The notes under the pieces were generated by a model. That model searched no databases. It was not told the DNA's origin and worked only from the letters and a program-made list of their open reading frames with translations. The translations under genes were made by a program, and so were the position numbers. This document shows, piece after piece, positions 50,662 through 59,881 of a stretch of DNA of 64,000 nucleotides. Within the stretch, counting starts at the first letter, position 1. Each line of letters begins with the position of its first letter. The stretch comes from Thermococcus gorgonarius (GTDB taxonomy: Archaea > Methanobacteriota_B > Thermococci > Thermococcales > Thermococcaceae), in the NCBI RefSeq assembly GCF_002214385.1, contig NZ_CP014855.1, positions 1,054,001 through 1,118,000 of the forward strand, given 5' to 3'.

Positions 50662-51010
50662 ATGAAAGGTAACGGAAGAATGTTAGAGAACATAAGAGGA
50701 AAAGCCAGAAGGGGGGAGGGAGAAACCGTACGGAAGTGAAAGGGAGGGGATACTGTTTGAGGTACTGAAAGAAGGTCTGTTCTGGGCCGCATGGGGCCGC
50801 CCTTCTGAAGTGATGCCGTTTTTGAGGGGAAAACTTTTAAACAACGGTTATAACGACAAGGCCAAGCAGGAACTCCAGTGGCTTCTTAACCAGCTTGAGG
50901 CCTACTACAACTACGTCGCAAGCAAAAACAGCGTTGAGGAAAAACATCTGCAGGCAATGAAGTCCTTCTACAGGGAAATCCTTACGGTTTTGTCCCTTGA
51001 CAGGGCTTAG
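50662..51010 (+). CDS. hypothetical 115-residue protein split by a +1 frame change
   Basis: An ATG at 50662 with GGTGAT four bases upstream encodes 25 residues (MKGNGRMLENIRG...ETVRK) to a TGA at 50737. If one base is skipped at this TGA, the frame continues EREGILFEVLKEGLFWAAWG and on to TAG at 51010, with RPSEVMPFLRGKLL and QELQWLLNQLEAYYNYVA. The downstream part has no start of its own before 50810 although it reads as protein well upstream of that. So this is one gene with a frameshift: a decayed gene, an assembly error or programmed +1 shift at AAG-TGA. I do not recognise the family. Confidence 0.5.
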
Positions 51011-51038: not shown

Positions 51039-51095
51039 CGGGATGATGTGGGAAGTTTCGCCTGAGCGGTGATGAGACTCGCATGGGCTGACCAC
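51039..51095 (+). ncRNA. box C/D guide sRNA (2'-O-methylation guide)
   Basis: All four boxes lie in order at canonical spacing: C box ATGATGT (51043-51049), a 12-base guide (51050-51061), D' CTGA (51062-51065), three-base spacer GCG, C' GTGATGA (51069-51075), a 12-base guide GACTCGCATGGG (51076-51087) and D CTGA (51088-51091), flanked by GG/CC that can pair as the terminal stem. The guide upstream of D is complementary over 11 bases to CCATGCGAGTC near the 5' end of archaeal 16S rRNA, predicting methylation of the U four bases in. A TATA box lies 25 bases upstream. Ends are approximate. Confidence 0.88.
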
Positions 51096-51141
51096 CATAT
51101 TCTTTTTTAAGTACACTCCGTTTTCCAAAAAGGGAAGAGGT

Positions 51142-53106
51142 ATGGAAAGAGAACTCTCAAGGTTCATTAACCGCCTCAAGGAACTGGTCGAGCTCGAGCG
51201 AAAGGCCGAGATAGAAGCCATGAGGGCAGAGATGAAACGCCTGTCCGGAAGAGAACGTGAGAAAGTTGGAAGGGCCATTCTGGGCCTGAACGGTAAAATC
51301 ATTGGCGAGGAACTGAGCTATTTTCTGATTAGATACGGGCGTGAGAAGGAAATAAAGACCGAAATAAGCGTTGGCGACCTGGTTGTGGTAAGCAAAAGGG
51401 ATCCCCTTAAGAGCGATTTGGTCGGGACGGTTGTAGAAAAGGGAAAGAGGTTTATTACGGTCGCCCTCGAATCCGTTCCAGAGTGGGCCCTTAAAGGAGT
51501 AAGGCTAGACCTCTACGCCAACGACATAACCTTCAAGCGCTGGATCGAAAACCTGAACAACCTCCACGATAGCGGGAGAATGGCACTAGAATTTTATTTA
51601 GGCTTAAGTGAACCGGAAGAGGGTGAAAAAGTTGATTTCACGCCCTATGACAAAAGCCTTAATGCAAGCCAGAGGAAGGCCATAGCCGGGGCTTTGGGCA
51701 GTTCTGACTTCTTCCTGATCCACGGCCCCTTCGGCACAGGGAAGACAAGAACACTGGCTGAACTCATAAGGCAGGAGGTTAAGAGGGGGAACAAAGTTCT
51801 CGCAACGGCCGAAAGCAACGTGGCAGTTGACAACCTCGTTGAAAGACTTGCCGATTCCGGCTTGAATATAGTGAGGGTCGGTCATCCGAGCAGGGTTTCA
51901 AAGCAACTCCACGAGACAACCCTAGCTTACAAAATAACCCAGCACGAGCTCTACGGCGAGCTGAGGGAACTGAGGATCATCCATCAGAACCTTAAGGAGA
52001 AGAGGGACACCTTCACGAAACCCAGCCCAAAATACCGAAGGGGGCTAAGTGACAGGGAAATTCTCAGGCTGGCATCCAGGGGAATTGGAACGAGGGGTAT
52101 CCCAGCAAGGATCGTCAGGGAGATGGCCGAGTGGATAAAGCTGAACGAACAGGTGAAGAAAACTCTCGATGACGCAATAAAGCTGGAGGAAAGAATAGCT
52201 AGAGAGATAATAAAAGAGGCGGACGTTGTTTTGACAACGAACTCATCTTCGGGCCTCGATGTGGTTAGCTACGGAGATTTTGATGTCGCTGTGATAGACG
52301 AAGCCACACAGGCAACTATTCCAAGCGTCCTCATACCAATCAATCGTGCGAAACGTTTCATACTTGCCGGGGACCACAAACAGCTGCCACCAACCATACT
52401 GAGTGAAAGGGCCAAGGAACTTTCAAAAACGCTGTTTGAGGGACTTATAGAACGCTATCCCAAAAAGTCAGAGATGCTCACGATTCAGTACCGTATGAAC
52501 GAGAAGTTGATGGAGTTTCCAAGCAGGGAATTCTACTCCGGGAAGGTCAAAGCGGCCGAGAGCGTGAGGAACATAACGCTCGCAGACCTTGGAGTTAAAA
52601 GTCAAACCCAAGAGAAGCCCTGGAGCGAAGTGCTCGACCCCGAGAACGTTTTAGTCTTCGTTGATACTTCCGAAAGAGAAGATCGTTTCGAGAAACAGAG
52701 AAAAGGCAGCGACAGCAGAGAGAACCCATTGGAGGCCAAAATAGTCGCCGAAATAGTCAAGCGCCTATTCGGGATTGGTCTGAAGCCAGAGTTCGTTGGT
52801 GTAATAACCCCCTACGACGATCAGAGAGACTTGCTAAGCACACTTCTTCCAGAGGATGTTGAAGTCAAGACCGTGGATGGATACCAGGGACGAGAGAAGG
52901 AAGCAATAGTGATCTCCTTTGTCCGTTCTAATCCTCGGGGAGAACTGGGTTTCCTTACCGACTTAAGGAGGCTGAACGTCTCGCTAACTAGGGCCAAGAG
53001 AAAGTTAATAGCCGTGGGTGACGCCTCAACCCTGAGTTCACATCCCACATACCGCAGGTTCCTGGAATTTGTCAGCAAGGAGGGGGTATTAGTGAGAGTG
53101 CAATAA
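51142..53106 (+). CDS. superfamily 1 helicase of UPF1/DNA2/IGHMBP2 type
   Basis: A 654-residue SF1 helicase: Walker [11 protein letters not shown] near residue 195, motif [10 protein letters not shown], motif [13 protein letters not shown], motif [17 protein letters not shown], motif [20 protein letters not shown] and [20 protein letters not shown] regulatory N-terminal domain of about 150 residues precedes these, including a UPF1-like beta barrel ([11 protein letters not shown]). It unwinds DNA or RNA; archaeal members are little studied. Start ATG 51142 has GAGGT directly upstream and a TATA-like TTTTTTAAG near 51105. Confidence 0.93.
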
Positions 53107-59418: not shown

Positions 59419-59842
59419 TTGGGTTTTCAAAACTTAAACCTTGCGAGCCTTTCAAGGGCATCCCTCGATTGGTTCATCTTAACCCCGGCAGAAAAGCATT
59501 TTAGTGTGGTACGCGTAACCCCCATAGAATACGGTGAGACCATCTTTGATACCCTTACAGCGGAGAAGCACGCAAAATACTCCTCGCAAGTGAACTCCTT
59601 TGAGCCCTACACAGGCCGCATCACCATTGAAGTCACGAGAGAAGGACTAATGAACCTCTTATAACAACATGAAGCCATATCCGCTTCACAAGCCAATAGA
59701 AATGCTAAAAAACAGAAATATGAAAGTCCTTGAGGTTTATACGGATATTCCGGATCAAAAACACGGGTTGTTTTCATCCGGACTAATAATCGTTGCGGGA
59801 AAGAATGGCCACGGGACGATGAGGAGAAAGCACCTCCTCTGA
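59419..59842 (+). pseudogene. two adjoining small frames, probable gene remnants
   Basis: Between relB and the convergent methyltransferase two plus-strand frames follow each other: one ending at 59664 (...PIEYGETIFDTLTAEKHAK...VTREGLMNLL) and one with ATG 59669 ending at TGA 59842 (57 residues; MKPYPLHKPIEMLKNRN...HGTMRRKHLL). They lie in different frames, lack ribosome sites, and neither is recognised. They may be a decayed gene with a frameshift, or the second may be a genuine small gene. The final codons coincide with the structured RNA at 59813. Confidence 0.35.
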
Positions 59843-59881
59843 GACCGGCGTGAGTGCTGAGACGCCCACGGTCTGAGTCCC
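59813..59881 (+). ncRNA. candidate structured RNA with GATGA/CTGA elements
   Basis: The stretch folds by eye into a closing stem GGGAC/GTCCC around two hairpins: GAGGAG-CTCCTC (59821-59839) and AGACC-GGCGT with ACGCC-GGTCT. A GATGA follows the 5' stem and CTGA precedes the 3' stem, the arrangement of a k-turn in guide RNAs. A weak TATA-like CTAATAAT lies about 26 bases upstream. Alternatively it is a terminator-like fold at the end of the minus-strand methyltransferase gene. Confidence 0.4.

Follow-up and report, generated by a model that had tools for sequence, protein, structure and literature searches.

Architecture of the locus

The window, a 64-kb stretch of a Thermococcus-group genome that is a single contig of 1.67 Mb, holds a short element that, judged by its sequence, is the gene of a box C/D sRNA and has a TATA box of its own (Table 1). 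The element follows a 66-codon ORF, whose stop codon is at 51008-51010, and precedes the start codon of a helicase gene on the same strand; it reads in full CGGG-ATGATGT-GGGAAGTTTCGC-CTGA-GCG-GTGATGA-GACTCGCATGGG-CTGA-CCAC. The four boxes, the two 12-base guides and the 3-base spacer are, letter for letter, those of the original prediction. A search of the window finds the complete C-D'-C'-D architecture a single time; 100 dinucleotide-preserving shuffles yield none, and their count stays at zero with loosened D' and C' boxes or with two mismatches tolerated.

Archaeal box C/D sRNAs are recognized by C and D boxes at their two ends, here ATGATGT and CTGA; by internal D' and C' boxes set close together in a kink-loop, here CTGA-GCG-GTGATGA; and by two guides of 10 to 12 bases, each with a Watson-Crick pair five bases before D or D', which both guides of this RNA have. 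The host must also supply the proteins, and genes for L7Ae, Nop5 and fibrillarin are all found in the genome. The last base of the C box is A in 77 of 79 orthologues and T in two; in the window copy it is T. This base takes no part in the sheared G.A pairs or in the G-C pair of the kink-turn.

The TATA box claimed upstream of the sRNA is likewise borne out: a TATA-like element lies about 23 to 25 bases upstream of the expected 5' end, with a start at about 51039, and over 79 orthologues the A/T fraction 31 to 26 bases ahead of the C box is 0.87-1.00, which indicates that its position is kept. The median TATA-to-start distance in T. kodakarensis is 23 bp (PMC4247193). Downstream, a T-rich run may serve as a terminator; some of its bases also belong to CTTTTTTAAG (51102-51111), a TATA-like element of the helicase gene.

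Table 1. Features of the sRNA locus, in window coordinates
Feature	Position	Strand	Remarks
TATA-like element of the sRNA gene, TTTTTAA	51012..51018	+	31 to 25 bases 5' of the C box
Box C/D sRNA	51039..51095	+	mature ends approximate; supported by the snoPyro_CD alignment and the orthologues
C box, ATGATGT	51043..51049	+	consensus RTGATGA, last base differs; first six bases kept in 79/79 orthologues
D' guide, GGGAAGTTTCGC	51050..51061	+	predicted target 16S 349-358, N+5 = A352
D' box, CTGA	51062..51065	+	CCGA in 69/79 orthologues
D'-C' spacer, GCG	51066..51068		
C' box, GTGATGA	51069..51075	+	RTGAGGA in 64/79 orthologues, covaries with D'
D guide, GACTCGCATGGG	51076..51087	+	predicted target 16S 49-59, N+5 = U52
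D box, CTGA	51088..51091	+	identical in 79/79 orthologues
T-rich run, possible terminator	51100..51108	+	3' of the sRNA; proposed from sequence
IGHMBP2-family helicase gene	51142..53106	+	outside the sRNA; TIGR00376, 815 bits

Relatives and orthologues

Rfam at its gathering thresholds reports no C/D RNA at 51039-51095. At a permissive threshold, snoPyro_CD (RF00095) can be aligned over its full length with 51039-51094 (40.3 bits, E 2.5e-7), short of the gathering score of 45 needed to file the sRNA under that family. The sR28 model (RF01136) likewise aligns over its full length; it scores 23.0 bits in the window and at best 34 in orthologues (threshold 39). In both cases the likeness comes mainly from the boxes. 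Because the guide consensus of the sR28 model differs, sR28 is not the orthologue, and both sR28 and sR12, with like boxes and different guides, were rejected as the family of this sRNA.

The Pyrococcus/Thermococcus sR series shares the architecture and length of the sRNA and probably contains its direct orthologues. Most orthologues combine a CCGA D' box with an RTGAGGA C' box, whereas the window copy has canonical D' and C' boxes and an ATGATGT C box. The guess of a Pyrococcus orthologue was right; the Pyrococcus loci keep both guides. We take the orthologue at G004:C1:473182-473235 to be that of P. abyssi GE5, and the one at G023:C1:254603-254657 is presumably that of T. kodakarensis KOD1. 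Published sets comprise 59 C/D sRNA genes in P. abyssi (PMC3124441) and 61 in T. kodakarensis (PMC9014305), and the orthologues of these two species are probably, even very likely, already among them; a literature search for the guide sequence returned no match, and the orthologue was not matched to a published sR number. The circular RNA table of PMC9014305 does not include the T. kodakarensis orthologue.

More distant C/D sRNAs share one half of the RNA. In Pyrobaculum sp. WP30 (L091) and in a Thermoprotei MAG (L094), the D guide ACTCGCATGGG is followed by CTGA, as in the window, and this identity implies the same U52 target; their D' guides are unrelated to that of the window sRNA and their loci are different. 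Such sharing of a D guide across phyla reads, at the sequence level, as convergent or anciently exchanged guide modules, and exchange of guide modules has been described (PMC4644070).

A combination of BLAST, a guide-plus-box pattern and a mismatch search found orthologues in 86 of 94 Thermococcaceae genomes, representing all six genera; the eight genomes without the gene are all incomplete drafts, and the guide-plus-box pattern is absent from 21 genomes of the class that belong to other families. We aligned 79 orthologue sequences, 40 of them distinct. The kink-turn bases of the C and D boxes show no variation (79/79). The D guide is fixed at positions 3-11 in all 79 sequences and at position 2 in 78; the D' guide is fixed from 2 to 11 except at 5 and 6, where 51 genomes have AG and 28 have GA. 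Both guides vary at positions 1 and 12 and thus share a constrained 10-base core. This conservation is of the functional kind, with the kink-turn and guide cores kept and the flanks free.

In the kink-loop the sheared-pair and C-G bases are kept in 79/79, and the pair formed by D' position 2 and C' position 5, which flanks the sheared G.A pairs and is U-U in the consensus, varies: C-G in 63 of 79, C-U in six, A-A in four, U-U in two, others in the rest. The U-U pair is confined to the window copy and its closest relative; the equivalent pair of the C/D kink-turn is U-U in 79/79. In the lineage of the window copy, D' and C' changed together (CTGA with GTGATGA), as expected if the two boxes form one kink-loop. 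Scanners that require canonical CTGA and RTGATGA would overlook most members of this orthologue set.

The D guide and 16S U52

The original prediction assigned the D guide to 16S rRNA through 11 base pairs and, by the N+5 rule, to U52. On the 16S of the same genome, all 11 Watson-Crick pairs with positions 49-59 are reproduced and N+5 again falls on U52, in a numbering that counts from the Rfam 16S start. When the guide was shuffled 300 times, no version equalled this pairing, and a stricter two-species permutation of the 10-base core gives p = 0.004. All 41 rRNA operons examined have the same target segment, and the duplex has a predicted energy of -20.8 kcal/mol. U52 is thus the predicted 2'-O-methylation site of the D guide. 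Its published P. abyssi number, U64, is absent from the modification list of the P. abyssi 30S subunit derived from a 3.2-Angstrom map (PMC7005279); this counts only weakly against U52, since a 2'-O-methyl can escape at 3.2 Angstrom and methylation could be partial.

The D' guide and 16S A352

For the D' guide no target could at first be named, and a search of rRNA and tRNAs was proposed instead. That search singles out one site. When the aligned rRNA operons of 39 species were scored, each with the guide of its own species, the best rRNA site was the same in all 39, 16S CGAAACCTCC (349-358 here), with nine of ten core pairs. The lone mismatch is A x C in every species, with C355 for AG guides and C354 for GA guides, and the N+5 pair is a Watson-Crick U-A pair in both clades. 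The duplex has a predicted energy of -14.2 kcal/mol here and -11.9 kcal/mol for the P. abyssi guide. The core does modestly better than permuted guides (p = 0.018-0.045, depending on the statistic), a result that taken alone is suggestive. Two further sites, 16S 549-560 and 23S 119-130, are good in one species or for one guide variant and were set aside for their lower score over all species.

N+5 falls on the second A of GCGAAACC, which is A352 here, A361 in the presumed P. abyssi genome and 373 in the published P. abyssi numbering. The P. abyssi offset of 12 places 34 of 34 published ac4C on the middle C of CCG, and the other offsets tested place two at most. Am373 was seen in P. abyssi 16S in a 3.2-Angstrom cryo-EM map, with modified nucleotides confirmed by LC-HRMS (Coureux et al., PMC7005279). 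Table 3 of that paper has just two 2'-O-methyls, Am373 and the P-site Cm1376, and Table 2 has the doubly modified ac4Cm250; the table places Am373 in hairpin loop h13, and the identity with A352 used here relies on the numbering check. We regard the match to Am373, which is independent of the permutation score, as decisive for the D' target. On this evidence A352, which the original prediction lacked, is a well-supported predicted methylation site of the D' guide. A literature search found no paper tying a guide to Am373, and none is named in the accessible text of PMC7005279.

Could the D guide alone be active, with the D' guide binding without methylating, or having no rRNA target, and with Am373 made by another guide or enzyme? 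The internal mismatch present in every species and the CCGA box of most orthologues would fit such an RNA, and Dennis et al. described mismatched or empty guides (PMC4644070). We nevertheless consider it unlikely. Conservation is equally strong in the D' and D cores, the 39 species agree on a site whose N+5 nucleotide is exactly a methylated A, the pair at that position is Watson-Crick in both clades, and the P. abyssi genome contains no guide of the form GGTTTCGNCNGA better suited to A352. Matches of the GGTTTCGNCNGA form in other genomes were rejected as not resembling C/D RNAs.

Still less probable, in our estimate, is a D' target outside rRNA, a tRNA or another RNA, in which CT and TC were swapped between clades and to which the coincidence with Am373 would owe nothing. 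The difference between the D' guides of the two clades, AG against GA (51 and 28 genomes), would track such a change. However, the detected tRNAs and 5S rRNA of the genome, a set from which tRNA-Trp was not recovered, contain no site comparable to the 16S one, which is a single mismatch short of perfect in both clades. Among tRNA targets tried and rejected for lack of a match was, in particular, tRNA-Ser(CGA).

The 16S segment has a second potential guide in the same genome. An sR23-like C/D sRNA (L082, G000:C1:1404091-1404123, minus strand) has a D guide, GGTTTCGCGGGG, that pairs with 16S C347-C355 and has its N+5 at G348. This target overlaps that of the D' guide, so the two guides would compete for one segment.

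A proposed dual-guide sRNP at helix 5

In the archaeal 16S consensus of Rfam, U52 is the partner of A344 in helix 5. The strand complementary to the U52 region is followed directly on its 3' side by an unpaired GAAAC linker, and this linker contains A352. The U52-A344 pair makes the two predicted sites adjacent in the secondary structure despite a distance of 300 nt in sequence. Dennis et al. proposed a chaperone role for such an arrangement (PMC4644070). The densest predicted hotspots are, according to the same work, 16S helices 3, 18 and 27.

We posit that the sRNA is transcribed independently as a dual-guide box C/D RNA. Along the established pathway, two L7Ae molecules would bind it, at the C/D kink-turn and at the D'/C' kink-loop, and Nop5 and fibrillarin would then complete the methylating complex. 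The D guide, paired with 16S 49-59, would direct 2'-O-methylation of U52, and the D' guide, paired with 349-358 across one internal A x C mismatch, would direct methylation of A352, producing Am373. With U52 inside helix 5 and A352 in the single-stranded stretch that follows the helix on its 3' side, one sRNP could hold both sides of the helix 5 junction while the 5' domain folds. That an independently transcribed dual-guide sRNA methylates both U52 and A352 accounts for the observations as a whole, and we hold it to be highly probable.

A bolder version, which we put forward tentatively and think rather doubtful, is that one sRNP clamps the strands around helix 5, makes Am373 and chaperones an early step of assembly. 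The imperfect D' guide would then have been kept by selection while its A x C mismatch came to lie one base apart in the Thermococcus clade and in the other genera, and the Watson-Crick pair in the kink-loop would be a family-specific trait.

The sRNA is of a known, ordinary type, a housekeeping guide RNA apart from the link between its D' guide and Am373. That assignment, the shift of the mismatch from clade to clade and the non-canonical, covarying kink-loop are the parts that we have not met in the literature. Through the link, Am373, one of a small number of 2'-O-methylations observed in the 30S subunit of a hyperthermophilic archaeon, is assigned a guide RNA, and this link is the useful, testable part of the finding; a P. 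furiosus RiboMeth-seq data set is deposited as GSE153501 (PMC7758197). Human SNORD16 guides modification of 18S A484 (PMC5612246), and the fragment that it targets, GGCGCGCAAAUUAC, corresponds in eukaryotes to GGCGCGAAACC, which holds A352. The methylated A lies in the same AAA run, and A484 and A352 probably correspond to within about one nucleotide, whereas SNORD16 itself is a eukaryotic snoRNA, longer than the window sRNA and different in layout. As this A-rich segment is also methylated in human 18S, the assignment bears on the age of the methylation.

Neighboring genes

That the element is a cis-acting leader of the helicase mRNA, an L7Ae-bound kink-turn rather than a free guide sRNA, is suggested by its position 50 bases 5' of the helicase start codon and by such cases proposed in T. 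kodakarensis (PMC4247193), but it is very improbable, as orthologues in Pyrococcus and other genera have no helicase neighbor yet keep both guides, a leader would need no conserved guide cores, and a second TATA-like element separates sRNA and helicase. In the wider survey of neighbors, the helicase follows in 44 of 77 loci, the upstream ORF precedes in 61 of 77, and the neighbors at Pyrococcus loci differ from those in the window, which together argue that the sRNA is not merely the leader of one mRNA.

The upstream ORF (50810-51010, plus strand) encodes 66 amino acids, belongs to no NCBIfam family and has a Pfam match below threshold only. Given that its orthologues lie directly 5' of the sRNA in those 61 loci, it is probably a genuine gene for a small protein. 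The window also contains a second C/D sRNA, at 59814-59878 on the plus strand, which matches Rfam RF01128 (sR43, described as sR42) with 73 bits, above the gathering threshold.
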